A stretch of DNA of 64,000 nucleotides from an uncultured Prevotella sp. (GTDB lineage: Bacteria; Bacteroidota; Bacteroidia; Bacteroidales; Bacteroidaceae): positions 30,120 through 94,119 of the forward strand of contig ONTZ01000006.1 of the NCBI GenBank assembly GCA_900320905.1, written 5' to 3'. The notes beneath the pieces were generated by a model, which ran no database searches, was not told where the DNA came from, and was given only the letters and a program-made list of their open reading frames with translations. The position numbers and the translations under genes are program-made. The first letter of the stretch is position 1. Every line of letters begins with the position of its first letter. This document shows positions 2,421-55,895 of this stretch, one piece after another.

Positions 2421-4868
2421 ATGAGAAACAGGTTGATACTTTTAGCCGTTGCGGTCATGACGATACTGACTGCACAGGCGAGAGACAGACAGTGCTTTGA
2501 CAAGGACTGGCGTTTTAACTTAGGCGACTCGGCCATTATGGCCAGGGCGGATTTCGATGACAGCAGTTGGCGCCGTCTCGATGTGCCTCACGACTGGGCC
2601 ATCGAAGGTGACTTCTATGTGGGTAATCCCAGTGGGGCAGGCGGTGGTGCCTTGCCTGGTGGTATCGGTTGGTACCGCAAGCACTTTGAAGTGAAAAGTG
2701 AGGAAGTGAAAAGTGAAAAGTTCTTCTTGGAGTTCGACGGCGTCTATATGAATTCCACGGTCTATGTGAATGGCCAGAAAGTGGGTTACCGACCCTACGG
2801 TTATTCGAGTTTCGAGTACGATATCACACCGTATGTCCGAGAGGGCGAGAACGTGGTGGCAGTACGGGTGGACAACTCCGACCAACCTAACTCCCGCTGG
2901 TACAGTGGCTGCGGTATCTATCGCCACGTGTGGTTCACCAAGACCAATCCTGTGCATGTGGCTCACTGGGGTGTTAATGCAAGTAGCAGTATGGTAAAGG
3001 GAAAGGGCCGTCTCGACATTGAGGTTACGCTCGAAGGTCAGGGGACGGTAGAAAACACTTTGTTCGATCCCAATGGTAAAGTCGTAGGCAAGTCAAAGGG
3101 CTTGAAATCTGCCATTACCATCGCCAAGCCCATGCTCTGGTCGTGTGAGACTCCTAATATATATAAGGTACGCACGAATATTAAGGTGGGCAATAAGATA
3201 GTGGATACCTATGAGACCACTACGGGTTTCCGTTCGTTTAAGTTTGATGCCGCCACAGGTTTCTGGCTCAACGGCAAGAATTTTAAACTCAACGGTGTTT
3301 GTGAGCACCACGACTTCGGATGTCTGGGAGCAGCCCTGAATGAAGATGCGCTGCACCGTAAACTCTCGAAACTCAAGGCGATGGGTGTCAACTCCATCCG
3401 TTCCTCGCACAACCCACCAGCACCAGAGTTGCTCAATATGTGCGACACGATGGGGCTGATTGTGATGGACGAGAGTTTCGACATGTGGCGCCGCAAGAAG
3501 ACACAGAACGACTATGCCCGTTTCTTCGACGAGTGGCATGAACGTGATCTCACCGACCTTGTGGTGCGCGACAGGAACCATCCTTGTATCCTGATGTGGA
3601 GCATCGGTAACGAGGTGCTCGAACAATGGTCGGGAGCAGGGGCCGATGAACTGACCTTAGAACAGGCAAACCTCATCCTGAATGCCGCCCATGATGCCTC
3701 GACGCTGGCGAAGGACGGCGAACTGAGTCCTAACTCTATCCTGACCATCCACCTCGCTGACATTATCAAGCGCAACGACGGGGCAGACCGTCCCATCCTC
3801 GCAGGCTGTAACGAACCTAGTCCCAACAACCACCTCTTCAAGAGTGGAGCCATCGATATCATCGGTTTCAACTATCACCACCAGTGGGTGAAGGATGTGC
3901 CGAAGAACTTCCCCGACAAACCTTTCATTTTCTCTGAGAGTGTGTCGGCCCTGCAGACGAGAGGCTACTATAAGATGCCATCCGACGTTGTGACATGGGC
4001 TCCGCAGGAGTGGTATCTCCCCTATACCGACCCCTCGTATATGTGTTCGGCTTATGACAACATGCATGCCTCATGGAGTTCGACCCATGAGGAGACCTGG
4101 GATGTGGTGAAGCACACGCCCTATGTCGGCGGACAGTATATCTGGACAGGTTGGGACTATATCGGCGAGCCCACGCCCTATGGCTTCCCGGCACGCAGTT
4201 CATACTTCGGCATCATCGACCTGGCAGGTTTTCCCAAGGACTCCTACTACATGTATCAGAGCGAGTGGACGGAGACACCTGTGCTGCACCTCTTCCCCCA
4301 TTGGAACTGGTTGCCGGGTGAGACCATCGACATGTGGTGCTATTATAACCATGCCGACGAGGTGGAACTCTTCATCAACGGCAAGAGTCAGGGTGTGCGC
4401 CGCAAGACCGCAGAGAATCCTGAGGGGCGCTATGACATGCACCAGACGAAGGCTAAGTTGAATAGTGAATATCACGTCGGTTGGCGTGTTACTTTCGAGC
4501 CTGGCGAGGTAAAGGCTGTGGCACGTAAGGACGGTAGGATAGTGGGTGAACAGACCATCAAGACCGCCGGCGTGCCGGAACGGATTCGCCTGACAAAGGA
4601 CTATGTGGGTAAGACCACCACTTTCGTGAATGTCGAGGTGGTGGATAAGGATGGTAACCTCTGTCCGTGGGCCGAAGACCAGATCTACTTCTCCGTCGAT
4701 GGCGATGCAAAGATTATAGGTACCGATAACGGTTGCCAGACTTCGATGGAGAACTTCAAGGCTCCGCAGCGCAAGGCTTTCTTCGGCAAGTGTATGGTGG
4801 TGGTGACGGGTAACGGTTCTATTACCGCCAAGTCGCCGACACTCCTGCCGGGTGTAATCGAGTTCTAA
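2421..4868 (+). CDS. GH2 beta-galactosidase, secreted
   Basis: An 815-residue family 2 glycoside hydrolase with a signal peptide (about 1-20), sugar-binding and immunoglobulin-like N-terminal domains, a TIM barrel and C-terminal beta domains (DUF4982 and GH2 C5 type). The catalytic acid/base is Glu398 in WSIGNEV and the nucleophile is Glu506 in IFSES. It should remove beta-linked galactose or a related sugar from oligosaccharides in the periplasm or at the surface. It starts 3 bases after the kinase-like gene and precedes a GH31 gene, one operon. An in-frame tract encoding EVKSEEVKSEK near residues 91-100 comes from a dispersed GTGAAAA repeat and is not expected in the family. Confidence 0.88.
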   Translation: MRNRLILLAVAVMTILTAQARDRQCFDKDWRFNLGDSAIMARADFDDSSWRRLDVPHDWAIEGDFYVGNPSGAGGGALPGGIGWYRKHFEVKSEEVKSEKFFLEFDGVYMNSTVYVNGQKVGYRPYGYSSFEYDITPYVREGENVVAVRVDNSDQPNSRWYSGCGIYRHVWFTKTNPVHVAHWGVNASSSMVKGKGRLDIEVTLEGQGTVENTLFDPNGKVVGKSKGLKSAITIAKPMLWSCETPNIYKVRTNIKVGNKIVDTYETTTGFRSFKFDAATGFWLNGKNFKLNGVCEHHDFGCLGAALNEDALHRKLSKLKAMGVNSIRSSHNPPAPELLNMCDTMGLIVMDESFDMWRRKKTQNDYARFFDEWHERDLTDLVVRDRNHPCILMWSIGNEVLEQWSGAGADELTLEQANLILNAAHDASTLAKDGELSPNSILTIHLADIIKRNDGADRPILAGCNEPSPNNHLFKSGAIDIIGFNYHHQWVKDVPKNFPDKPFIFSESVSALQTRGYYKMPSDVVTWAPQEWYLPYTDPSYMCSAYDNMHASWSSTHEETWDVVKHTPYVGGQYIWTGWDYIGEPTPYGFPARSSYFGIIDLAGFPKDSYYMYQSEWTETPVLHLFPHWNWLPGETIDMWCYYNHADEVELFINGKSQGVRRKTAENPEGRYDMHQTKAKLNSEYHVGWRVTFEPGEVKAVARKDGRIVGEQTIKTAGVPERIRLTKDYVGKTTTFVNVEVVDKDGNLCPWAEDQIYFSVDGDAKIIGTDNGCQTSMENFKAPQRKAFFGKCMVVVTGNGSITAKSPTLLPGVIEF
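2689..2720. repeat. GTGAAAA tandem tract inside GH2 coding sequence
   Basis: Near-perfect tandem copies of AAGTGAAAAGTGA lie in frame in the GH2 N-terminal domain and encode alternating EVKSE. The same motif occurs at 4908-4930, 7834-7863, 55898-55910 and 62854-62877. Confidence 0.75.
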
Positions 4869-44142: not shown

Positions 44143-44150
44143 CAAAGGTA
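44143..44150 (-). promoter_or_regulatory. -7 box of miaB-msbA-sulfatase operon
   Basis: TACCTTTG on the minus strand, 21 bases before ATG 44122; this decides the miaB start. Confidence 0.65.
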
Positions 44151-44178
44151 CTAATAAGTGAGCGAAAATCCAAATATT

Positions 44179-44234
44179 TAACCTAAAGATAACATACATT
44201 TTGCTATATTATTCGGTAATTCTCCGTACCTTTG
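44179..44234 (+). promoter_or_regulatory. OmpR-type operator and -7 box, CPBP-like gene
   Basis: TAACCTAAAGATAACATAC at 44179-44197 (TAAC half sites 11 bases apart) and TACCTTTG at 44227-44234, exactly 48 bases from the first TAAC. Confidence 0.8.
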
Positions 44235-44256
44235 CACCCGAAAAGAGAAGGGAAAG

Positions 44257-45036
44257 ATGAAGAAAGCACTGATGTATCTCCTTTTGGCATTGGGCATAAT
44301 GCTTGGTGTGGTGTTTGTGGGTGGGGCTGTGATCAGTTTCTCCGCAGGCTTCATCGACGGGTACAATGAGGCTCATCCTGGCACAACGGATTCAAGGACG
44401 ATGATCCTTTCCAGTGGTATGATATTGGTGTTCCTGACTTGTGTGATACTCAATATCGTGTTTCTTCGTCTCCACTATGCATCATACACCGTAGGACGTG
44501 TTCCTATGGAGAAACGCTGGCGGGTGGTTGCCTGGCTGTTGTTGGCGATGGCGGGTCTTACATTGGTTTCTTGTATGATGTGGAATCCCCTGACGGATTC
44601 CGACGAGGCTGTGCGTACCTCTTATGCCTGGATGAAGGAGCATCTGGTGACTTCGGTGATATTGTGTGTCATCATTGAGGCCACTGCCGACCTGATCATC
44701 TTCGGCGGGGTGCTGCGTGAGATATTAGAGTGGAAGCATCGTCCTGAAATCGTCATCCCCATCTTTGGGGCTGTGATTGGCCTCCTCTCAGGACTTTTCA
44801 GCCATCCTCTGTTAATCATCCCCGGTATGATGATAGCCCAGTTGGAAGGCTATGTCTATGAGTATAGCCGTAGTGTCATCCCCGTGATTATCTGCGATAG
44901 CGTCTTCTGGATGGTGATGTTGTGTATGATGGGTTTCACCTTCCCATGGTGGTGCTTGCTCATTGCCGCTGCAATGATTATTCCTGGCACCGTGTTTGCC
45001 CTCAAGACGATGGAGCCTTACAAGCCCATCGATTAA
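44257..45036 (+). CDS. Multi-pass membrane protein, CPBP-like
   Basis: 259 residues, about seven membrane spans. The region FGGVLREILEW followed by LLSGLFSHPLLIIPGM resembles the CPBP intramembrane protease family, but the EExxxR and HxxxN motifs are not intact, so protease activity is doubtful. Its promoter carries the TAAC operator shared with three other genes here. It converges with the response regulator with a 4-base overlap of stops. Confidence 0.6.
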   Translation: MKKALMYLLLALGIMLGVVFVGGAVISFSAGFIDGYNEAHPGTTDSRTMILSSGMILVFLTCVILNIVFLRLHYASYTVGRVPMEKRWRVVAWLLLAMAGLTLVSCMMWNPLTDSDEAVRTSYAWMKEHLVTSVILCVIIEATADLIIFGGVLREILEWKHRPEIVIPIFGAVIGLLSGLFSHPLLIIPGMMIAQLEGYVYEYSRSVIPVIICDSVFWMVMLCMMGFTFPWWCLLIAAAMIIPGTVFALKTMEPYKPID

Positions 45037-45731
45037 ATGACTATCAATTGCAGTCCGATACCTCTGACGGTCTTGAGGTTGATGCGAGGCTCGTCGGCAA
45101 GCAGTTTGCGGAGTTTATTCACAAACACATCGAGACTGCGTGAGGCGAAGTAGTCATCCTCTGTATTCCAGAATCGGCTGAGGATAGCCTCGCGACGCAC
45201 GACATTATTCTTATTATCGGCAAGTATCGCCAGTATCTGTGCCTCACGCTGGGTGATAGTCTGTGAGACGTTAGTCTCATCGTTGCGCAGGGTGGCGTGG
45301 TCAGCATCGAGGGTATATTTGCCGAGTTTGTAGTGACTGGTCTCCTTCTGAGTCTTGGCACCGCCTCGCATCTTCATCAGTGCCTGGATGTGGGCATCGA
45401 GTTCCTCAGGCACGAAGGGTTTCTTTACGTAGTTGTTGATGCCCAGACGGTAGCCCGCCTTCACGTCGTTGGGTGAGGTGAGGGCGGAGGTGAAGATGAT
45501 AATCACGTCACCGTCAGTCTCGCGAATGCGCTCCACCATCTCAAAACCGTTCATCACGGGCATGTCGATATCGGAGATGATCACGTCGGGGTGTGTCTGC
45601 TCCCACATCTTCACACCTTCTTTTCCATTACAGGCGGTGCTCACTTCATAGCCGCCGATGATGTCTTCGAGACCTGTCTTCTCGATATAGGCGAGGGACT
45701 CGTCGTCTTCCACTAAGAGTAATTTGATCAT
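45033..45731 (-). CDS. OmpR/PhoB-family response regulator
   Basis: 232 residues: receiver domain with phospho-acceptor Asp54 (ISDIDMPVMNG), the acidic pair EDD at 8-10, Lys in VKKPF, then a winged-helix DNA-binding domain (about 130-230, ITQREAQILAILAD, VRRE, RSLDVFVNKLRKLL). Lies 12 bases after the kinase gene. OmpR-type proteins bind direct repeats at about 11-base period, as in the TAAC sites in four nearby promoters, so it is the best candidate for their regulator. Confidence 0.87.
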   Translation of the reverse strand: MIKLLLVEDDESLAYIEKTGLEDIIGGYEVSTACNGKEGVKMWEQTHPDVIISDIDMPVMNGFEMVERIRETDGDVIIIFTSALTSPNDVKAGYRLGINNYVKKPFVPEELDAHIQALMKMRGGAKTQKETSHYKLGKYTLDADHATLRNDETNVSQTITQREAQILAILADNKNNVVRREAILSRFWNTEDDYFASRSLDVFVNKLRKLLADEPRINLKTVRGIGLQLIVI

Positions 45732-45743
45732 AGGGATATGGGT

Positions 45744-47051
45744 TTAATGGGTTTGATGAGTTACTTTGGGGATATAAAGGGTAAACTCAGAATATTTATC
45801 TTTCTCGCTGCTGACGGTGACCTTGCCGCCGTGAGCCTGCATCACTTGGTCCACATAGTTCAGTCCGAGTCCGAAGCCAGAGACACCGCCCTTGCGGTTC
45901 TTCTCGTGGATGGCGGCTCGCCCGAACTTGTCGAAGATCACCTGCTGTTCTTCCTTCGTCATACCGATACCGTTGTCACGTACCTTTAATAAGACATTCT
46001 TATCGGTATCGAAGGTCTTGATTTCTATCTTAATCTCGTCCTTCGAATACTTGATGGCGTTGTCGATGAGGTTGGCGATGGCTTCTGTCATATACTGCTC
46101 GTCAGCCAGTACGTTCTTTACTTCTAAGCGGGTCGTGATCTCGATGGGTTTCGTCGCCTTTGCCTTGGCCTTCTCTACCAGGTCGTTGATGATCGGCTCG
46201 ATATGGATGTCCCACTTGTTCAGGATGAGTTTTTTGTTTTCGAGTTTTGAGATGGTCAGCAGTTTGTTGACGAGTGCCAGCAGGTGCTCGGCTTCTTCTT
46301 CAATAATGCTATAGTATTTCTCCTTGATCTGTGGCTTGTCGTCCACTTTACCACTGTGCAGGAAGTGGGCTCCCATAATGATGCTTGACAGCGGCGACTT
46401 CATATCATGCACCATCGCATACGAGAAGTCATTACGTAGTTCGGCTATCTGCTCCTGTTCTGTGATGAAACGCAGCAGTTGGATGATGATGATGGCGAAG
46501 AAACCGAGGATGATGGCACTGATGAGAAAGAGCGGACTCAGCCGTCGGCCCAGTTCGGGGTAGGGGTTGTTGAGGGCTAACCGAATGGCCTTTGACTGGT
46601 CACGACGGATGCTAACGGGCTTTGTCAGTATCGACCACGACGAACTGCGGTCATTGTTCTGGCGCAGTATCTGTCCTTCGGCATCTATCTCCTGAACCGT
46701 TACATCGCGGTTGATACGTGCTACGTTCAACAGGGAATCGACAAATAATGCCACTGTGTCGAGTGATATCTCTGACTGGTATATGCGGCTCAGGGCATCA
46801 TTCATACCCTCCACCGATGAGGCTAATGAGAGATTGCCACGAGCCTCTGGCAGACTGAGTGTGTCGCCCTTGGTCACGATGTCAGCACGGTTGTAACTCT
46901 CGTAGAACATCGCCCAGGTCAGTTGGTTGTCCACCCTCTCCGTGATGTCTTTCGTCACCGAACGGTAGGTCATCCACATATAGAGTCCCAGCAGCAACAA
47001 TACCGCTATGGCACTCACTATCGACACATATTTATATTTATTATTATGCAT
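45744..47051 (-). CDS. Sensor histidine kinase
   Basis: 435 residues. The start is ATG 47051, 36 bases downstream of the -7 box; a longer frame runs into the promoter. Two membrane spans (about 8-28 and 175-198) bracket a periplasmic sensor; then the H-box YAMVHDMKSPLSS, N-box NLIDNAIKYS, G1 RDNGIGM and G2 GFGLGL. A complete, apparently active kinase, paired with the regulator downstream. Its promoter faces away from the SPFH gene and shares the intergenic TAAC operator. Confidence 0.88.
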   Translation of the reverse strand: MHNNKYKYVSIVSAIAVLLLLGLYMWMTYRSVTKDITERVDNQLTWAMFYESYNRADIVTKGDTLSLPEARGNLSLASSVEGMNDALSRIYQSEISLDTVALFVDSLLNVARINRDVTVQEIDAEGQILRQNNDRSSSWSILTKPVSIRRDQSKAIRLALNNPYPELGRRLSPLFLISAIILGFFAIIIIQLLRFITEQEQIAELRNDFSYAMVHDMKSPLSSIIMGAHFLHSGKVDDKPQIKEKYYSIIEEEAEHLLALVNKLLTISKLENKKLILNKWDIHIEPIINDLVEKAKAKATKPIEITTRLEVKNVLADEQYMTEAIANLIDNAIKYSKDEIKIEIKTFDTDKNVLLKVRDNGIGMTKEEQQVIFDKFGRAAIHEKNRKGGVSGFGLGLNYVDQVMQAHGGKVTVSSEKDKYSEFTLYIPKVTHQTH

Positions 47052-47086
47052 ACCCCTCGCGCACCTCGTGTTCTCTTTACGAGGGG

Positions 47087-47094
47087 CAAAGGTA
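47087..47094 (-). promoter_or_regulatory. -7 box of kinase-regulator operon
   Basis: TACCTTTG on the minus strand; the divergent operator (47131-47156) lies 37 bases upstream of it. Confidence 0.6.
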
Positions 47095-47130
47095 CGCATT
47101 ATTTCCGAGACGACCAAAGAAATGAAGATT

Positions 47131-47186
47131 TAACATAAAGATAACATACAAATAACAGGTAGATATTTGTTTTTTTTGTACCTTTG
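47131..47186 (+). promoter_or_regulatory. OmpR-type operator and -7 box, SPFH gene
   Basis: TAAC at 47131, 47142 and 47153 (11-base period) and TACCTTTG at 47179-47186, 48 bases from the first TAAC. Located between the divergent kinase and SPFH genes. Confidence 0.8.
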
Positions 47187-47215
47187 TCGCTGTATTAACA
47201 AACATTATTTTGAAA

Positions 47216-48070
47216 ATGAAACAGTATTATCGCATTCTGGCTTATGTCGGAGGAGGCATAGCCCTGGTTTTGATCCTTTTTGCTACCTGCTGCACGGTAG
47301 TAGACTCTGGTGAGGTGGGAATTCGTTTCCATAAGTGGTCACTCAACGAACAGGACTACGGTGGTGTGGAAGGGACGTGCAAGGGTTGGGTGTTTTATAA
47401 CCCCATCACGACTAACGTGTTTACTTACCCCACGTTCACACAGCGTAAGCAGTACGAGACATTCTCCGTGAATGCCAAGGATGCTTCGCTCTTCGAGATG
47501 GACCCCACCATCGCCTATCGCATCAATCCTGACAAGGCCTGTGACATATTTACTAAATATCGTGTGGGCGTGAAGGAACTGGAAGAGGGCTATATCCGTA
47601 CTTGTATCTATGAGGCCTACCGTACCTGTGCCAACCAGTACACCTCGGACTCGCTGATGTCGAACCGTGCCAACTTTGAGCGTGACGTCCGTGCCCGTCT
47701 GGAGAAGTCGCTGATGGCTGAGGGATTCCTTGTGGAGGAATTCACCTCGAAGATCACGCCTCCCTCATCGCTGCTCTCGATGATCGATGCCAAGAACACC
47801 GCTATCCAGAGTGCCCTGAAGGCTGAGAACGAGGTGAAGGAGGCTGAGGCTAACGCCAAGATTGCCGTCGCCAAGGCCGAGGGTAATGCCAAGGCTATGA
47901 AGATCAAGGCTGATGCGGAGGCTTACTATAACAGAACGATTGCTGCCTCGCTCTCGCCGATGATTGTCCAGGAGGACATGATTGAGAAGTGGGATGGCAA
48001 GATGCCTCAGATCATGAGTGGCAACGGTGGTATGATTATGGACATCTCGAAGGTCATCGGCAGCAAGTGA
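47216..48070 (+). CDS. SPFH/prohibitin-domain membrane protein
   Basis: 284 residues from ATG 47216 (an upstream TTG is less likely). One N-terminal membrane span (about 8-28), a prohibitin-like SPFH domain (VDSGEVGIRFHKW, ITPPSSLLSMIDAK), and a long Ala/Glu/Lys-rich coiled coil (about 195-245). SPFH proteins form membrane-bound oligomers tied to protease control and envelope stress. Its promoter carries the TAAC operator. A perfect hairpin 48119-48149 follows. Confidence 0.8.
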   Translation: MKQYYRILAYVGGGIALVLILFATCCTVVDSGEVGIRFHKWSLNEQDYGGVEGTCKGWVFYNPITTNVFTYPTFTQRKQYETFSVNAKDASLFEMDPTIAYRINPDKACDIFTKYRVGVKELEEGYIRTCIYEAYRTCANQYTSDSLMSNRANFERDVRARLEKSLMAEGFLVEEFTSKITPPSSLLSMIDAKNTAIQSALKAENEVKEAEANAKIAVAKAEGNAKAMKIKADAEAYYNRTIAASLSPMIVQEDMIEKWDGKMPQIMSGNGGMIMDISKVIGSK

Positions 48071-48118
48071 TCTTTGCTCTGTACTTTTGCTTTTCAACAG
48101 CCAACTAAAAGGAGACAG

Positions 48119-48149
48119 AACTCACGGGGACAGTCTGACCCCGTGAGTT
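48119..48149. repeat. Palindrome AACTCACGGGG, possible terminator of SPFH gene
   Basis: AACTCACGGGG pairs perfectly with CCCCGTGAGTT across a 9-base loop; related to the ATCACGGGGACAG repeat family and placed after the SPFH gene, 9 bases before GTAC element copy B. Confidence 0.7.
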
Positions 48150-48158
48150 CATAAATTA

Positions 48159-48256
48159 ATGTAGTTTTATCATCGTACAAGACTACTGTACCATCGGTAC
48201 AAGACTTCTGTACTGTCAGTACAAAAGGTCTGTACTGCCAGTACAAAGCACTTGTA
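48159..48256 (-). repeat. 98-bp GTAC-rich dispersed element, copy B
   Basis: Reverse-orientation copy of 12189-12286, the same length, about 80 percent identical, with the same 22-base internal period and the same TTGTACGATGATAAAAC end. Confidence 0.85.
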
Positions 48257-48370
48257 CTACAACCATGTCCGATATTCCGCCTGCGGGAAAGCCTGCTATA
48301 TAATCCCAAGGTGCGAAAAACTTGTATGGAGAGGGGCTTTTTTATAGTTTGTTAACGCCGAAATCACATT

Positions 48371-48426
48371 TAACCTAAAGATAACGAACAAATAACATAT
48401 TGTTTTTGTAGTTTATTCTACCTTTG
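48371..48426 (+). promoter_or_regulatory. OmpR-type operator and -7 box, DUF3836 gene
   Basis: TAAC at 48371, 48382 and 48393 and TACCTTTG at 48419-48426; again 48 bases from the first TAAC to the -7 box. Confidence 0.8.
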
Positions 48427-48487
48427 CAGCGTCTAAAGGACAAACGAACAAGATAATTAAAAGTTGAACAATTAAAAAACAAGAGTT

Positions 48488-48973
48488 ATGGAAACTATCA
48501 TCACCGCAGCAACAGTACTTTCAATGTACTTCAACGCTATCAACAGCAACGACGTGAACTATATGTACAACGGCGACATCGAGGATGGCAAAGTGAACAA
48601 GATCGAGGTCTATGAGCGTAACGACAACCAGCAGATGGAGCAGAAGATGGAATACTGCTACGAGTACGACGAGCAGGGCCGTCTGACCAGCAAGGAGATG
48701 CTGAGTTGGGACGATGCCAAGAAGGACTGGGTGAAGAACAGTCGCCTCACCTATAAATATTATAAGAACGGCTACAACGTGGAGGTGAGCCACTGGAATG
48801 CTGAGAAGCAGCAGTACGACCTGCCCCAGGAGGTGACGCTCTACCGCTCGAAGGCTCCCAGCCTGACCACGGTGAGAACCTATAAGATGAATGAGACGCA
48901 GGACAATATGTACCTGACGAGCAGCATGGTGATGATGGAGCCGCTCGACGACCGCCTGCTCGCTGCCCAATAA
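48488..48973 (+). CDS. DUF3836-type protein
   Basis: 161 residues with a YEYDEQGRLTSKEM region and Trp/Tyr-rich strands, matching the Bacteroidota DUF3836 family of unknown function. The N-terminus (METIITAATVLSMYF) is only weakly like a signal peptide. The promoter carries the TAAC operator and the 5' leader is about 55 bases. A hairpin follows at 49009-49040. Confidence 0.7.
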   Translation: METIITAATVLSMYFNAINSNDVNYMYNGDIEDGKVNKIEVYERNDNQQMEQKMEYCYEYDEQGRLTSKEMLSWDDAKKDWVKNSRLTYKYYKNGYNVEVSHWNAEKQQYDLPQEVTLYRSKAPSLTTVRTYKMNETQDNMYLTSSMVMMEPLDDRLLAAQ

Positions 48974-49008
48974 GAATCCACCCATCTCTCTCACATTATT
49001 ATATACAG

Positions 49009-49040
49009 GCCGCCATGCATGAGCAATCATGTCTGGCGGC
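49009..49040 (+). terminator. Hairpin after DUF3836 gene
   Basis: GCCGCCA pairs with TGGCGGC, with an inner ATGA/TCAT stem; no T-run follows. Nothing else is seen in 49041-49157. Confidence 0.45.
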
Positions 49041-49157
49041 TCTTCGTATCGGTAAGTCAACAACAAAGCAACTGGCATTTGCTTCTTCTATCTCACAGCG
49101 TGCCTGTCCCTGTTACTCAATTATTCTTAACACAAAGATTATTGAACTCATCAGTAT

Positions 49158-49254
49158 ATTCAGCCAAATAACATCATTATTATATAAATTTGGCTAAATA
49201 AATAGGTATATATTTGGCCAAATAGGATAAAAGTGTTATCTTTGTGGCCAAATA
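49158..49254 (+). promoter_or_regulatory. Promoter with TTTGGCCAAA operator sites, ATPase gene
   Basis: TTTG 49213-49216, a 20-base spacer and TATCTTTG 49237-49244 form the promoter. TTTGGCCAAAT (49213-49223) is a palindrome covering the -33 box; related sites are TTTGGCTAAAT (49189-49199), GTGGCCAAAT (49244-49253) and GCCAAATAA (49158-49166). Confidence 0.7.
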
Positions 49255-49269
49255 TAATAAGATATCGGT

Positions 49270-50706
49270 ATGATTGTTGGTAGAAAACGAGAGATGGAGG
49301 AACTTAGGAACCTCTACGAAAGCAATAAGGCTGAGTTTGTTGCCATATATGGTCGCAGACGAGTAGGAAAGACGTTTCTTGTCAAAGAGATGTTCCAAGA
49401 CAAAATGACTTTCTATCATAGTGGCCTGTCGCCTTTTGACAAAGAGCGCAAAATCAGCATGCGTGACCAACTTGAGGCTTTTTATGCCAGTTTACAACGT
49501 TACGGCATGGAGGAAAGCAGTTGCCCCAAATCATGGATGGAGGCTTTCCGGCTGTTAGGAGAACTATTGGACCAAATTGATGACGGGAAGCGTCAGTTGA
49601 TATTCATCGACGAACTACCATGGATGGATACACCTCGTTCCAAATTCCTGATGGCCTTTGAGCATTTCTGGAACACATGGGGTGCATGGCACGACAGGGT
49701 TATGCTGATTGTTTGCGGTAGTGCCACATCGTGGATGCTTGACAATCTCATCAATAGCAAGGGCGGCCTTTACGACCGTCTGACATGGCAGATCAAATTG
49801 TCTCCCTTCACCTTAGGAGAGTGCAAGGAATTCTTCAATGCAAAGAATATAATGTTATCCACTTACGACATCGTGGAGTGTTATATGATACTTGGAGGAA
49901 TACCTTACTATCTGAATTACCTGCAACGAGGGAAGAGCATTGCTCAGAACATTGACTTGTTGTTCTTCGACAGAAATGCGAAACTAGCCTCTGAGTTTCA
50001 GAGACTTTTCGGTTCATTGTTTGTCAACCCTGACGATTACATGAAAATCGTCAGATTATTAGCGAAGCGTCATACCGGCTATACGCGTGATGAAATCACC
50101 TCTAATCTTGGCATGACGTCTGGAGGAACTTTCACGAGAATGCTGGAGTCTCTTGTCGCCAGCGATTTCATAGTCAGTTACCATCCCTTTGGCATCAGTC
50201 AGAAAGAGATCAGATACAAGTTATGTGACAGTTTCTGTCTTTTCTATCTACGCTTCGTGGACGGTCATAACCGGCAGGATGAGTCTTTCTGGCTTCATCA
50301 CCAGAATGCACCTCAACTTAATGCCTGGCGTGGATTAGCCTTCGAGCAGGTATGTTTTGCCCACGTTTTTAAGATTAAGAAAGCCTTGGGAGTGGAAGGG
50401 GTGGCCTCATCGGAGTCTGCATTGATTATTCGTGGAGATGAAGAAGAGAGAGGTGCCCAGATAGATATGCTGATTGTGCGCGACGATCGTGTGGTGAACC
50501 TCTGTGAGATGAAATTCCTATCGAAAGCCTTCGAACCAAAAACAGAAGATGAACAGACGTTGAGGGAGCGCATAGCAACAGTGCAAGAACTATTGTCGTT
50601 CAAGCATACTGTTCACCTGACTTTAGTTACCACAGTCGGCCTCAAGGCAAATGTCCACAGTGGCGTTTTCCAGCATATTATCACAATCGACCAATTGATA
50701 GATTAG
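49270..50706 (+). CDS. AAA ATPase, archaeal-ATPase/DUF234 type
   Basis: 478 residues: Walker A YGRRRVGKTFL near residue 35, Walker B LIFIDELPWMD, sensor motif IVCGSATSWM, then a winged helix and a DUF234/PD-(D/E)xK-like C-terminus (GAQIDMLIVRDDRVVNLCEMKF, keyed by D, E and K). The family is abundant in Bacteroidota; function is poorly defined, possibly a DNA-linked or defence role. Promoter palindromes suggest tight local control. Confidence 0.8.
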   Translation: MIVGRKREMEELRNLYESNKAEFVAIYGRRRVGKTFLVKEMFQDKMTFYHSGLSPFDKERKISMRDQLEAFYASLQRYGMEESSCPKSWMEAFRLLGELLDQIDDGKRQLIFIDELPWMDTPRSKFLMAFEHFWNTWGAWHDRVMLIVCGSATSWMLDNLINSKGGLYDRLTWQIKLSPFTLGECKEFFNAKNIMLSTYDIVECYMILGGIPYYLNYLQRGKSIAQNIDLLFFDRNAKLASEFQRLFGSLFVNPDDYMKIVRLLAKRHTGYTRDEITSNLGMTSGGTFTRMLESLVASDFIVSYHPFGISQKEIRYKLCDSFCLFYLRFVDGHNRQDESFWLHHQNAPQLNAWRGLAFEQVCFAHVFKIKKALGVEGVASSESALIIRGDEEERGAQIDMLIVRDDRVVNLCEMKFLSKAFEPKTEDEQTLRERIATVQELLSFKHTVHLTLVTTVGLKANVHSGVFQHIITIDQLID

Positions 50707-50729
50707 CACTAACGATTTGCAGTCGCACC

Positions 50730-50852
50730 ATGCAACAGGACTACAACTCTTCTGCCTCTGGATATCTGGAGGATTCATACGAGGGCATCAGCCGGACATT
50801 TACCGATGTGGAGATACTGAGCACATCGGAGGTAAATGTCGTGGCTTTTTAA
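50730..50852 (+). pseudogene. N-terminal remnant of a serine/threonine protein kinase gene
   Basis: A 40-codon frame (MQQDYNSSASGYLEDSY, then FTDVEILSTSEVNVVAF) resembling the first 40 residues of Prevotella-type serine/threonine kinases, stopping where AKGKRYGR..LLK would follow. The recognition is from memory. An imperfect hairpin (50795-50840) lies within it and may end the ATPase transcript. Confidence 0.4.
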
Positions 50853-50920
50853 ATTCAATTCTATACACTTCGGCCAAATATATAGATAATTCAAATTTAG
50901 CACCTACTTTGTGTTCCTTT

Positions 50921-52237
50921 TTACATATCTTTCTTACTGAGTGAACCAATGTGAATGGTCATCTTGCGCAGTTCGGGAGTCTGGGCTACCATCGTGTCAA
51001 CCTTCTCCTTAAAGGATGCCTCGTCGTAACGGCTCTCGTCCTTCTTCAGTTCATAAGCCCATGCTTTCTTTCCAACGGGGTCAACCACCACAAGGTCTAT
51101 CTCATTGAAGCCTTTTCTGTCCCACCATTTGCCGACGATGTATTGTCCTTCTTCCTGAAACTTACGAGCGAAATAACGCTCCATCATCAGTCCTGACAGA
51201 CTATCATAGTCGCGCTTGATGATGTCGCCAAGGGCTTTCTGTGCCTTATTTTCCACCAAAGCCTGATACTTGAAGAAAAAACGGAACCAGAATATCAGGA
51301 AGCAGTCATCCAACTGATAGCGCATCTTCTTACTGCTCTCTTTGGCAAAGATGGGCTGGTACTTACTAATCAGTCCATAATAATCTTCCAGGCGTGACAG
51401 ATAACTACTGATATTGTCAACACCTAATTCGTTCTTGATTTCAGCGCTGGTCTTCATGCCACTGGCAATGCAGGTCAGGATAGAGAAATAGATGACGTAA
51501 TCTGTGCCGAACTCCTCTATCAAGATGTTCTTGCCTTCATTGATGAAGGGGGAGTTTTCTTCCGTCAGTGCTGCCAGCATCTTGTTTTTACGAGTCTTGC
51601 CACGGTCAAGCAACAAGGTGACATACCATGCCACACCACCCGTAATGCTAAACAATGCCAGTAAGTCCTCTGGCGTATAGTCCGGATTGAAGTCGTTTAG
51701 GATTTCCTTCAGTACATCAGTTTTGAATGGCTGGAGCGTCAACTTTTCATCGGCACGCCCGAAAAGCGGTTCCTCGTAGTCCTCAAAAATCTTTTTCATC
51801 AGTGTAAAAACAGAGCCGCTGATAATCAGGTTCAAGTGACTCTTCCGTTTCCATAAGTCCCAGTCACGCTGCATATCACTGAATACCGTTGGGTTTACCT
51901 TCTGGAAATTCTGGAACTCATCGATGACCAAAGTGAATGGTCTGCTCTCTGAAAGCCGGAGCACGAATCTAAAGACCTCGGCAAAGGAGTTTGCCTGTCC
52001 CAAAACAGGAACTCCAAGTTTGTGAGTAATCTCGGCCACGAAGTCCTGACATAACAGCGTCTCTGCTTTCTTTCCGACGAAGAAATAGAGGATGGTTTCA
52101 TCCCCGCATCTTTGCGACAACTCCGTCTTACCAATACGCCTGCGACCCATGATGACGGTCATTCGCGCCTCACGCTTACTTTGGCCTAAGACCTCTCTGA
52201 GCAGTTGTTGCTCTGACTCCCTATCATAGAACTTCAT
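50921..52237 (-). CDS. AAA ATPase with DUF234-type C-terminus
   Basis: 438 residues: Walker A GRRRIGKTELS near 36, Walker B TLVIDEFQNF, IISGSVFTLMKK, a winged-helix part (ITGGVAWYVTLLL, ELGVDNISSYLSRLE), and a C-terminal nuclease-like segment (GFNEIDLVVVDPVGKKAWAYELKK) with D, E and K spaced like PD-(D/E)xK. Same broad family as 49270-50706 but not a close copy. A perfect 17-base palindrome lies between its -7 box and the start. Confidence 0.8.
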   Translation of the reverse strand: MKFYDRESEQQLLREVLGQSKREARMTVIMGRRRIGKTELSQRCGDETILYFFVGKKAETLLCQDFVAEITHKLGVPVLGQANSFAEVFRFVLRLSESRPFTLVIDEFQNFQKVNPTVFSDMQRDWDLWKRKSHLNLIISGSVFTLMKKIFEDYEEPLFGRADEKLTLQPFKTDVLKEILNDFNPDYTPEDLLALFSITGGVAWYVTLLLDRGKTRKNKMLAALTEENSPFINEGKNILIEEFGTDYVIYFSILTCIASGMKTSAEIKNELGVDNISSYLSRLEDYYGLISKYQPIFAKESSKKMRYQLDDCFLIFWFRFFFKYQALVENKAQKALGDIIKRDYDSLSGLMMERYFARKFQEEGQYIVGKWWDRKGFNEIDLVVVDPVGKKAWAYELKKDESRYDEASFKEKVDTMVAQTPELRKMTIHIGSLSKKDM

Positions 52238-52254
52238 AACTACAAATGATAATG

Positions 52255-52292
52255 GTCATTATAATAATGACGGTTATTATTTTGCAAAGATA
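52255..52292 (-). promoter_or_regulatory. -7 box and palindromic operator of second ATPase gene
   Basis: TATCTTTG on the minus strand at 52285-52292 and the perfect palindrome GTCATTATAATAATGAC at 52255-52271 around or just after the transcript start; a good autorepressor site. Confidence 0.65.
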
Positions 52293-52340
52293 CGAAATGT
52301 TTCCGAATAAACAAACAAAATGAAGATATTTTTTATAAGT

Positions 52341-52820
52341 TTATACAACAATGATGTCCTCAAAGCGCTGCCCCATCTTCAGCACGTACGGCTCCTGGGG
52401 CGACGGACTTGTCGGACGGTCGGAAAGTCTGATAACCAAAAAGACAATGGCAATGACTGCCAGCAGCACTAATATGCTGATAATGGTATACTTCTTTTTC
52501 TGACCCCGTCGGCTTTGAGGCTGTTCTGAAGTTGATGACGAAGAGGGGCTTGGTTCTTCTGCTTTTTCTTTGCGAAAAGCCTCCCAACTGTCATAATCAA
52601 CAAACTGAGCCAGCAGGTTAAGAGTTGACAGACGTGGCGCAGCGGGTTCTGAAAGGTATCCCCAAAGCCGTTTCAAAGTAGTGGGACTGATATGCTGGTG
52701 TATCTTGTCGAATATCATTTCCGACAGGAAGTCGAAGTCCTTGGGTGTCTGCATGCGTCTGCCTGCAACAACCTCAATCGCCTCACGTAATCTCTGTATG
52801 TTCTCCTCTTGGTAGTCCAT
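52341..52820 (-). CDS. Single-span membrane protein with N-terminal helical domain
   Basis: 159 residues: a helical N-terminal domain (ISPTTLKRLWGYLSEP, then LLAQFVDYDSWEAFRKEK) seen in many Bacteroidota proteins, a Ser/Gln/basic linker, one membrane span (about 111-131) and a short exported tail. Function unknown; an anti-sigma-like or regulatory role is possible but not shown. Confidence 0.6.
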   Translation of the reverse strand: MDYQEENIQRLREAIEVVAGRRMQTPKDFDFLSEMIFDKIHQHISPTTLKRLWGYLSEPAAPRLSTLNLLAQFVDYDSWEAFRKEKAEEPSPSSSSTSEQPQSRRGQKKKYTIISILVLLAVIAIVFLVIRLSDRPTSPSPQEPYVLKMGQRFEDIIVV

Positions 52821-52876
52821 GGGGTCAAAGTCTTATCGCTTTACTCGATGTTGTCGCCTGTTTCCAAACGACGGTA

Positions 52877-52884
52877 CAAAGATA
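52877..52884 (-). promoter_or_regulatory. -7 box of single-span membrane protein gene
   Basis: TATCTTTG on the minus strand, 57 bases before the ATG at 52820. Confidence 0.5.
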
Positions 52885-52984
52885 TACATTTTTTTTGAGT
52901 GTCGCAACATTGTGAACTTTTTTTTGCTTTAGAGGGCAAAATAAGGACTGAGTCACCTTATTATATAATACACGCGTGAAAGTT

Positions 52985-53040
52985 TAACCTAAAGATAACA
53001 TACGTTTTGCATAGGGTTAGAAAAAAAGTCCGTACCTTTG
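52985..53040 (+). promoter_or_regulatory. OmpR-type operator and -7 box, M16 peptidase gene
   Basis: TAACCTAAAGATAACATAC at 52985-53003 and TACCTTTG at 53033-53040, 48 bases from the first TAAC; same 19-base core as 44179. Confidence 0.82.
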
Positions 53041-53075: not shown

Positions 53076-55895
53076 ATGAAACTAAGAAAACTTTTCGTAG
53101 CAGTCGCACTGCTCACAGTAGGACTTGCTTCGGCACAGCAACAGATGCAGATGCCGGAAATTCCAGTTGACAAGGATGTTCGTGTCGGCAAACTCGCCAA
53201 CGGACTGACTTATTATCTGCGTCACAACAACACGCCAGAGAAGAAGGCTAACTTCTACATCGCCCAGCGCGTGGGCTCCATCCAGGAGGACGACTCGCAG
53301 CAGGGACTGGCACACTTCTTGGAGCACATGGCCTTTAACGGCTCTGAGCACTTTCCACAGGGAAAGATGCTGGAGTATCTGCAGACCATCGGTGTTCAGT
53401 TCGGACGTAGTCTGAATGCCTACACCTCTATCGACCGCACCGTGTATTATATCGCTGACGTCTCTACAGAGCGCCAGAGTGCCCTCGACTCTTGTATGCT
53501 GGTACTCCGCGACTGGTCGAGCGGTATCACGGCTGAGCCTGCTGAGATTGAGAAGGAGCGCGACGTGATCCACAACGAGTACCGTATGCGCAACAGCCCC
53601 AATCAGCGTATGATTGAGCGTGCCCTTCCCACCCTGTTCCAGGGTTCAAAGTACGGCTACCGTATGCCTATCGGTAAGATGGAGATCGTGGATAACTTCA
53701 AGCCCGAGGAACTCATCGCCTATTATAAGAAATGGTACCGTCCTGACAACCAGGGTATCATCATCGTGGGAGACATCGATGTTGATTATACCGAGAACAT
53801 GATTAAGAAACTCTTCGGTGACATCGTGGTGCCTGCCGATGCTGCCAAGGTGATCGACGAGCCTGTGCCCGACAATGAGAAAGCCATCTATGTGGCTGAG
53901 AAGGACAAAGAACAGCAGTACTCCATCCTCATGCTCTCAATGAAGCGTGACCCCATCCCAACAGAACTGAAAAAGACGGCAGCCTATCTGGTGCAGGACT
54001 ACCTGAACGATATGGTGTGTGCTATGCTCAATGCCCGTTTCTCAGAGATTCAGCAGCAGCCCGACTGTCCTTTCATACAGGCTCAGGCCCAGGACGGCAA
54101 CTTCATGCAACTGGCCCGTACCAAGGATGCCCTGATGCTGATTGGCGTGGCTAAGGAAGGCAAGGATATCGAGACCCTGCAGGCTGTGGCCCGTGAGGGA
54201 AAGCGTGCCCACGACTTCGGCTTCACCGCTACGGAATATGCCCGTGCCAAGGCAGACTATATCAGTGCCTTGGAGAAGGTCTATACCAATCGCGACAAGC
54301 GTAAGAACGAGGAGTATGCTGACGAGTATATCGAGAACTTCCTCGAGAGTGACCCCATCCCCTCCATCGAGGATCTCTATCAGACGATGAATGCCCTGTC
54401 ACAGCAGTTGCCTATAGATGTCGTAAACCAGTATGCCCAGCAAATCATCAGCATTGATGACAAGAACCTCGTGGCCTTTAACATGGAACAGGAGAAGGAG
54501 GGCAAGACCTACGTGGCTACTGATGCCATGCAGAAGGCTTTGGAAGGTGTGCGTGCAGAAACCCTCACCGCTTGGGTGGATAATGTGAAAGAAGAGCCTC
54601 TGATGACTAAGATGCCTGCCAAGGGCAGTATCGTGAAGGAAAGTGAGAACAAGACTCTCGGATACAAGGAACTGACCCTCTCGAATGGTGCGAAGGTGAT
54701 TCTGAAGAAGACGGACTTCAAGGATGACGAGGTGAGGATGCAGGCTGAGGCCAAGGGTGGCTATTCGCTCTTCGGCAAGGCTGATGTGATGAACCTCCAA
54801 CTCGCTGAGACAGCACAGGCATACAGTGGTCTGGGCAACTTCTCGAAGTCGGAACTCGACAAGGCTCTCGCTGGTAAGATGGTCAGTTGTGCACTTTCTC
54901 TCAAGGAAGACCGCCAGTATATCAGCGGACGTTCCACACCGAAGGATCTCGAGACACTCTTCCAGTTGTTCTACCTCACACAGACCAACATCAACAAGGA
55001 CGAGAAGTCGATGGCTTCATTCATCAACCAGATGCAGACAGTGCTGAAGAACAAGAGCCTGAACCCCCAGTTGGTCTATCAGGATTCTCTCGAGAGCACC
55101 AGAAACTGCGGCAATCTGCTCTATCGTATCCCAGAGGCTGAGGATATTGCTAAGTTCGACTACGAGCGTACCCTCCAGATACTGAAGCAACTCTATGAGA
55201 ACGGCGGTCAGTTTACCTATACCATCATCGGTAACTTCGACGAACAGGCCATCCGTCCTCTCATCGAACAGTACATCGCCTCTCTGCCTGCTGGCAAGGC
55301 CGTCACTCCCAAGGAGGTCCGCACCTTCTTTAAGGGTAGGGTAAACAACCGTTTCGAGAAGCAGATGGAGACACCACAGGCTACCACCACTCAGATTTGG
55401 AAGAACGACAAGATGGCTTATACGCTTGAGAACAAGGTGCTGCTCGATGCTGCCACCCGTGTACTCACCCGCATCTACCTGCGTACCATCCGTGAGGAGG
55501 AGAGTGCTGCCTACAATGTGGGATGCAGTGGTCAGATCAGCACGATGGGTCCGAAGCCCGTATTCTTCATCACGGCCCAGGCTCCTACGAATCCTGACAA
55601 GCAGAAGATTGCTGAGGACCTGATGATGAAGTACATCAACGAGGCCAAGACTAAGATTGCCGCTGACGACCTGGATCCTGTGAAGGAGATCATGCTGAAG
55701 CAGGCTGAGGATGACAACCGTGAGAACGCCCACTGGATGGATGTACTCACAGAGTGGACAGCAGAGGGTGTGGATCTCCAGACAGGCTATGCTGAAACCG
55801 TGAAGGCTCTGACTCCTGAAAAAATCCAGAAGTTCATCACCGACTTCCTCGCTGCCGGCAACCATGCCTCTGTCGTCATGATGCCCACGAAATGA
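53076..55895 (+). CDS. M16 family zinc metallopeptidase, exported
   Basis: 939 residues from ATG 53076 (upstream in-frame codons overlap the promoter). Signal peptide ends near residue 20. The inverted zinc motif HFLEH is at 80-84, with the downstream Glu in EKERDVIHNEY; two M16 halves follow, with the second (inactive-type) half from about 520. Such peptidases degrade peptides in the periplasm. Its promoter carries the TAAC operator. A strong terminator follows. Confidence 0.88.
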   Translation: MKLRKLFVAVALLTVGLASAQQQMQMPEIPVDKDVRVGKLANGLTYYLRHNNTPEKKANFYIAQRVGSIQEDDSQQGLAHFLEHMAFNGSEHFPQGKMLEYLQTIGVQFGRSLNAYTSIDRTVYYIADVSTERQSALDSCMLVLRDWSSGITAEPAEIEKERDVIHNEYRMRNSPNQRMIERALPTLFQGSKYGYRMPIGKMEIVDNFKPEELIAYYKKWYRPDNQGIIIVGDIDVDYTENMIKKLFGDIVVPADAAKVIDEPVPDNEKAIYVAEKDKEQQYSILMLSMKRDPIPTELKKTAAYLVQDYLNDMVCAMLNARFSEIQQQPDCPFIQAQAQDGNFMQLARTKDALMLIGVAKEGKDIETLQAVAREGKRAHDFGFTATEYARAKADYISALEKVYTNRDKRKNEEYADEYIENFLESDPIPSIEDLYQTMNALSQQLPIDVVNQYAQQIISIDDKNLVAFNMEQEKEGKTYVATDAMQKALEGVRAETLTAWVDNVKEEPLMTKMPAKGSIVKESENKTLGYKELTLSNGAKVILKKTDFKDDEVRMQAEAKGGYSLFGKADVMNLQLAETAQAYSGLGNFSKSELDKALAGKMVSCALSLKEDRQYISGRSTPKDLETLFQLFYLTQTNINKDEKSMASFINQMQTVLKNKSLNPQLVYQDSLESTRNCGNLLYRIPEAEDIAKFDYERTLQILKQLYENGGQFTYTIIGNFDEQAIRPLIEQYIASLPAGKAVTPKEVRTFFKGRVNNRFEKQMETPQATTTQIWKNDKMAYTLENKVLLDAATRVLTRIYLRTIREEESAAYNVGCSGQISTMGPKPVFFITAQAPTNPDKQKIAEDLMMKYINEAKTKIAADDLDPVKEIMLKQAEDDNRENAHWMDVLTEWTAEGVDLQTGYAETVKALTPEKIQKFITDFLAAGNHASVVMMPTK

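Follow-up and report, generated by a model that had tools for sequence, protein, structure and literature searches.

Bacteroidota promoters carry unusual -33 and -7 elements and, to our knowledge, the action of activators on such promoters has been little charted. In E. coli, the pho box has a pitch of 11 bp. A passage of PMC3348028 describes E. coli PhoB as an OmpR-family regulator that binds in tandem to direct repeats overlapping the -35 site. Here, we analysed a 64,000-nucleotide stretch of an uncultured Prevotella sp. (contig ONTZ01000006.1, positions 30,120 to 94,119; hereafter the window, whose own coordinates are used), in which four promoters share a TAAC direct-repeat operator around the genes of an OmpR/PhoB-type response regulator and a sensor histidine kinase. 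As with PhoB and the pho box, an OmpR-family regulator is found together with direct repeats over the upstream core element. However, the half-site differs, the promoter is of the Bacteroidota -7/-33 kind, and the putative regulon is a private one of four promoters.

ComCDE, blp and pln are peptide-pheromone bacteriocin systems of Gram-positive bacteria. Relatives of the window's locus share with them a short double-glycine peptide beside the kinase, a C39 exporter, several longer double-glycine peptides and direct-repeat operators. In contrast, the Gram-positive regulators are of the LytTR type, while those studied here are of the OmpR type and the exporter is accompanied by HlyD and TolC-like genes; moreover, neither such a peptide nor a close exporter was found for the window itself. 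In the Bacteroidales, a passage of PMC10352776 describes a ribosomally synthesized and post-translationally modified peptide cluster, BGC5, with the same pairing of a kinase and response regulator beside GG-motif precursor peptides and radical SAM enzymes, although the transporter is missing from that cluster and the passage contains no operator analysis.

The closest named regulator family is RprY (RprXY of Bacteroides, RprY of Porphyromonas). Nevertheless, the window's regulator is not RprY: it reached 181.6 bits against NCBIfam NF051850, whose cut-off is 370, and a true RprY (L288, 428 bits) is encoded elsewhere in the same genome. It likewise fell below the cut-off of the Bacteroidota PhoB family (NF053854; 125.4 bits, cut-off 270). 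A term search of PMC3646045, a paper on RprY, returned no mention of a consensus, motif, binding site or direct repeat. The largely open-access literature searched gave no paper on DUF3836 and, on direct repeats of OmpR regulators in Bacteroides, a general Pho review; among the matches listed for these subjects and for bacteroidetocins, double-glycine exporters and peptide pheromones, no earlier description of the present system was found.

A sequence-only reading had proposed operators starting at 44179, 47131, 48371 and 52985, and a motif search of the window found all four at these positions, each beginning with TAACCTAAAGATAAC or TAACATAAAGATAAC. As that reading had also claimed, the first T of the operator lies 48 bases before TACCTTTG in every promoter, and the TAAC half-sites recur with a pitch of 11, two or three per site. 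The third half position of operators 1 and 4 reads TTTTGC.

44179..44193, + strand: operator 1 with two TAAC halves; TACCTTTG follows at 44227, a distance of 48
44227..44234, + strand: -7 box of target 1
47131..47156, + strand: operator 2 with three TAAC halves; TACCTTTG follows at 47179, a distance of 48
47179..47186, + strand: -7 box of target 2
48371..48396, + strand: operator 3 with three TAAC halves; TACCTTTG follows at 48419, a distance of 48
48419..48426, + strand: -7 box of target 3
52985..52999, + strand: operator 4 with two TAAC halves; TACCTTTG follows at 53033, a distance of 48
53033..53040, + strand: -7 box of target 4

The window contains four copies of the motif TAAC(A/C)TAAAGATAAC, with no further exact copy in its own assembly (3.2 Mb, 118 contigs, 82% complete). 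Exact TAACNTAAAGATAAC was confined to the same four places in this genome, while the reversed pattern was not encountered. Allowing up to three mismatches, the window gave four matches, compared with none in 100 shuffles. It is highly probable, in our judgement, that the kinase–regulator pair at 45033-47051 runs a small dedicated regulon around itself through phased operators, and sequence comparisons support both the regulon and its promoter rule well. In the proposed mechanism, the regulator, activated presumably by phosphorylation in response to a signal, would bind TAAC halves spaced every 11 bp, about one helical turn, and thus on the same face of the DNA, the halves beginning 48, 37 and sometimes 26 bases before a TAnnTTTG box. 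The bound regulator would substitute for the -33 element and recruit RNA polymerase with the main sigma factor, as E. coli PhoB does, thereby turning on four transcripts that encode a CPBP-like membrane protein, an SPFH protein, a DUF3836 protein and an M16 peptidase.

The geometry was assessed on nonredundant sites of the window and of loci L078-L098, L208-L283 and L322-L354, which carry the regulator family. Among 89 three-repeat sites, 84 had a TAnnTTTG box 30-80 bases downstream, at a distance of 48 in 81 cases, 47 in one and 59 in two; boxes on the opposite strand, taken as a control, were never at 48, and no three-repeat site was found in these loci at pitches of 9, 10, 12, 13 or 14. For the 112 core sites, the box stood at 48 in 94 (one of which has a second box at 28), at 37 in one and at 59 in one. 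Counted by offset, boxes concentrate at 48 with 11-bp echoes at 37 and 59, and are few elsewhere. Sorting 117 sites by their first downstream gene showed that all 43 DUF3836 sites have three halves and stand at 48, while two halves each are found at the 40 sites ahead of the 259-aa membrane protein (33 at 48, 7 at 47) and at the 13 M16 sites (12 at 48, 1 at 47); the six SPFH sites mostly have three, and so has the M16 site in L322 and L324. In a passage of PMC9723704, the Flavobacterium psychrophilum box spans -12 to -5; if this numbering is valid here, the halves would lie at about -60, -49 and -38. At L278, the three-repeat site at 4391 stands 48 bases before TACCTTGC instead of TAnnTTTG, and TACCTTGC fits the TAnnTTGY box that the same passage gives for Flavobacterium.

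Among 359 other promoters, the commonest offset from the box is 23 for TTG (74 promoters) and 24 for TTTG (49), whereas TTG at offset 23 was present in none of 136 unique sites at 48 (0/136 versus 74/359, p 6e-12). The third half spans offsets 26-23. Since TTG is missing from its usual offset at every one of these sites, the operator seems to stand in for the -33 element, as had been proposed from the window alone. The sites show the arrangement of a PhoB-like activator promoter: direct repeats cover the upstream core element, their spacing from the -7 box is constant, and the element itself is absent.

The regulator and kinase genes, with their promoter, are as follows.

45033..45731, - strand: response regulator of OmpR/PhoB type, 232 aa; both Pfam domains (Response_reg, Trans_reg_C) pass their cut-offs
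45744..47051, - strand: sensor histidine kinase, HisKA and HATPase_c, adjoining the regulator on the same strand
47087..47118, - strand: kinase/regulator promoter, TACCTTTG from 47094, TTTG 24 bases upstream

With Pfam scores of 87.7 and 57.1 bits for its receiver and winged-helix domains, the regulator is a member of the OmpR/PhoB family. The kinase starts at the ATG at 47051, and a longer form from the TTG at 47117 is possible. The sequence-only reading had also placed one site in the regulator's own divergent promoter region. Operator 2 indeed lies 37-62 bases upstream of the kinase promoter, but autoregulation by replacement of the -33 element is not indicated, because this promoter has its own canonical TTTG at the usual offset of 24 bases before TACCTTTG. 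On the other side of the pair, the opposite strand carries a TACCTTTG box directed towards miaB (44143-44179); operator 1 starts 29 bases upstream of this box and so might affect miaB as well. L273, L275, L276 and L278 have core motifs without a -7 box, oriented opposite to the regulator gene and 75-120 bases upstream of it; in L275, a regulator-facing box stands just upstream, which would suit autorepression.

The motif and the regulator are inherited together. In a sample of 200 genomes of the genus, regulator orthologues (E < 1e-80) were found in 17, and the exact motif in 16 of these 17 compared with 7 of the 183 others (Fisher p 2e-17). In the sole regulator-bearing genome without the motif (G153), the gene pair is at a contig end and the DUF3836 gene is cut at a contig start. 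In one of the seven others, G136, a site stands at 48 and the cognate kinase gene lies where a contig ends. The remaining six carry a single match each; these look like chance rather than wider use of the motif, because none is at 48 and the reversed pattern gave one match each in 12 of the 200 genomes. Targets of regulator-less genomes (L156, L157 and L189) were also inspected: the site is absent from the stretches around the nearest M16 relatives in G009 (66%) and G025 (79%, residues 1-774) and the nearest DUF3836 relative (53%, G073). A further 39 M16 or DUF3836 control loci contained no site at 48, and the single control locus with a site at 47, L195, is itself a true member. In addition, the operator varies with the recognition helix of the regulator: where the helix carries Arg (...[ST]RLR), the halves are TTAAC in all seven loci with scored sites, whereas other residues, mostly Lys, go with mostly ATAAC halves. 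On the strength of this co-occurrence, the targets lacking the site where the regulator is absent and the covariation, the product of 45033-45731, previously named as the likely binder, remains the best candidate. In wider samples, the thresholds used gave relatives of the regulator in 28 of 301 genomes at the family level and in 5 of 295 at the order level.

Several observations weigh against this reading. With two mismatches the motif no longer stands out: the window's genome yields 14 extra matches, one of which is the third half of operator 2, compared with 30 for the reversed control. Related genomes do not count as independent cases, and a single change in the past may account for the split between Arg/TTAAC and Lys/ATAAC; L271 and L349 (both with T) and L333 (with C) lack the A before TAAC. 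As to spacing, nine of the 112 core sites stand at 47 and seven have no box in range. TAnnTTTG is missing in range on the own strand from two sites of Segatella copri L273, from L275 and from one of two sites in L276, and likewise from two L278 sites, one of which has TACCTTGC at 48. In the sequence available, 5 of the 62 loci in the window's clade and 11 of the 44 outside it lack a site at 47-49, contig ends accounting for some of these loci but not all, and the repeats of L389, which belongs to another family, are out of register. The 48 spacing rule is therefore general, not absolute.

A scan of the 200 genus genomes for TAAC-N7-TAAC before TAnnTTTG revealed a second class of sites at 47: among the first 105 sites listed, 21 of the 88 from regulator-less genomes were at this distance, and no other distance exceeded 8. 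Of 25 loci at 47 chosen for inspection, 24 gave a downstream open reading frame (ORF), and the 10 that were domain-scanned comprised two PHO4 transporters, three Na/Pi cotransporters, two porin O/P proteins, one TerC, one outer-membrane barrel and one PhoB above its NCBIfam cut-off. Because sites of this class precede phosphate transporters, porins and phoB, the PhoB of the genus seems to follow the same promoter design one base closer. Both systems have TAAC repeats with an 11-bp pitch at a fixed distance from TAnnTTTG, whereas the Pho boxes of the genus (L129-L148, L124, L125) have their first TAAC at 47, consist mostly of TGTAAC halves and serve phosphate transport.

These comparisons bear on the identity of the binder. 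The regulator has relatives in RprY and PhoB, and PhoB boxes are built on a similar repeat, so the sites could in principle belong to such a regulator and the pair be a mere neighbour. However, the exact motif is confined to the window's locus in a genome with its own true RprY, and the motif tracks the regulator and its recognition helix. RprY was rejected as binder by the family score and the separate true RprY, and PhoB by half-site, distance and targets; we regard any other binder as highly improbable. It is also improbable, though somewhat less so, that the sites are repressor operators at which bound regulator blocks polymerase. The third half does overlap the position of the -33 element, and Segatella copri has sites near the regulator gene without a downstream box on their own strand. 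On the other hand, with the usual TTG absent from 136 of 136 sites, the promoters would be expected to be weak without help, and a constant spacing from the -7 box would suit a polymerase-contacting activator, not a roadblock. An envelope or proteolysis stress response, as suggested in the sequence-only reading, in which the kinase would sense surface damage and the targets would carry out repair, is a possible, if rather unlikely, account of the signal. An M16 peptidase and an SPFH protein are among the targets, the M16 gene with a site also adjoins the kinase in L322 and L324, and by eye the N-terminal hydrophobic segments of the kinase resemble a membrane anchor. However, no chaperone, DegP or Bam gene was recognised by eye, without a search, among the first downstream ORFs, and the sister systems control peptide export and maturation. 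The link to peptide secretion is the more informative lead.

In distant members of the family, the same operators precede genes for double-glycine peptides, HlyD followed by a C39-peptidase exporter, radical SAM enzymes (candidate maturases), TolC-like proteins and DUF3836. The C39 exporter is above the TIGR01193 cut-off in L272 and L278, and Rce1/CPBP genes are present in the clusters of L278 and L282. Outside the window's clade, 43 loci were compared, including L269, the clade's nearest relative, and excluding L281, a short clade contig. A kinase-divergent site was present in 27 of them, and in 10 of these 27 the gene that it leads into encodes a GG-leader peptide of 37-62 aa. A profile built from nine kinase-divergent double-glycine peptides, L389 included, recovered such peptides that had not been used in its construction in L353, L333 and L352 (E 7e-7 to 6e-5), and matched in L280 a peptide out of frame with the nearby ATG. 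Together with L388-L390, a short double-glycine peptide diverges from the kinase gene in 15 of 46 non-clade loci; L389, although of another family, is one of them, and L350 and L351 are near-copies. The peptides of L333 and L352 have no in-register site facing away from the kinase. Further GG peptides occur within the clusters of L323, L325, L328, L333 and L334. Peptide and exporter genes lie behind the same operator, alongside the kinase and regulator, in L272, L328 and L334, as well as in L325 (C39 gene just past the stretch) and L278 (TACCTTGC before the exporter genes), while the exporters of L350 and L351 lack their own operator. This kinase-divergent arrangement resembles a peptide-signal circuit.

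In the window's clade (62 loci: the window and L208-L268), no such peptide was found. A site at 48 was present in 56 of the 62 loci and a kinase-divergent site in 20, of which 17 precede DUF3836 and three SPFH. Applied to 29,244 small ORFs of these loci, the peptide profile gave a single match, which lacks GG and has an E value of 1.9. Two regular-expression searches, one of small ORFs and one that for the clade reported only ORFs behind a site, likewise found no peptide gene for the window, and no double-glycine peptide gene was found beside the window's kinase. At E 1e-100, an exporter like that of the relatives was detected in none of the 14 clade genomes G000 (the window's own), G013, G103, G199, G119, G090, G031, G018, G088, G020, G131, G153, G086 and G136, nor in G476; several of these assemblies are incomplete (G000 at 82%). 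G273, a further relative, does encode a C39 exporter (68%) at another locus, but control of this exporter by the regulator was rejected, as no TAAC-N6..8-TAAC was found there. This cluster (L363, 7676-13263), which has no TAAC sites, contains a C39 exporter, HlyD, four double-glycine peptides, one of which resembles those of L323 and L334, and an 83-aa protein that by eye is helix-turn-helix-like. In the tree, the window's clade (nine rows with L269, support 100/96) is placed among peptide-bearing lineages, and the group of L278, L282 and Segatella copri joins it with support of 94/87; the tree places the clade but cannot polarise gain versus loss of the peptide.

The ancestral or sister role of the regulator is thus likely to be the control of a double-glycine peptide secretion circuit, with DUF3836 as the target shared with the window's clade. 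More tentatively, and with somewhat less than even confidence, the regulator family may be the output arm of a Bacteroidota peptide-pheromone circuit whose peptide and exporter the window's clade has lost while keeping the response. In such a circuit, a kinase-divergent double-glycine peptide, mostly of 37-44 aa, would be exported by the C39 transporter and sensed by the kinase, and the regulator would turn on peptide, exporter, maturase, an immunity-like CPBP protein and DUF3836 through TAAC repeats at 48. The window's clade may then listen to peptides of other bacteria.

The four target genes of the window are listed below.

44257..45036, + strand: target 1, 259-aa membrane protein, probably degenerate CPBP-like, no Pfam match; hhalign, all-helical model
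47216..48070, + strand: target 2, SPFH/Band_7 protein, by domain search
48488..48973, + strand: target 3, DUF3836 protein, by domain search and structure model
53076..55895, + strand: target 4, M16 peptidase, by domain search

The domain search bore out the earlier labels of targets 2 to 4. For target 1, described from sequence as CPBP-like, only a distant relationship held: there was no match to PF02517 at E 10 and the Glu-Glu/Arg motif is missing, while hhalign, run with a thin profile, gave 92% probability against three CPBP proteins linked to the regulator family, and the structure model is all-helical (mean predicted local distance difference test score 86). This suggests a distant CPBP (Rce1-like) relative whose motif has gone. 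The DUF3836 model is a beta-sheet protein that matches solved DUF3836 structures; of the three good matches from the fold search, two bear the name DUF3836 and the third has no assigned function. DUF3836 is the target common to the window and its peptide-bearing relatives, and the Bacteroides members share DUF3836 (L272, L323, L334) and M16 (L322, L324) with the window.

The interval from the SPFH gene to operator 3 contains, by eye, a run of near-repeats of the kind GTACAAGACTTCTGTACTGTCA at 48171-48262. Downstream of target 3 and ahead of target 4 are two ATPase_2-type genes (49270-50706 and 50921-52237, the second with DUF234) and a 159-aa gene, for which tblastn at 1e-8 found no match among the listed loci of relatives. 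Elsewhere in the family, a site at 48 precedes a 105-aa, by eye YbjQ-family-like protein at L269 5068, and a TTAAC-half site precedes a protein of 757-769 aa, by eye like secreted outer-membrane proteins, in L337, L338, L341-L348 and L354.

Combined, the rule of 11-bp TAAC repeats at 48, or at 47 for PhoB, with the -33 TTG missing, would make both regulons readable from the genome. For gut and rumen Bacteroidota, the family also provides a candidate circuit of peptide signalling whose peptides, kinases and promoters are defined.

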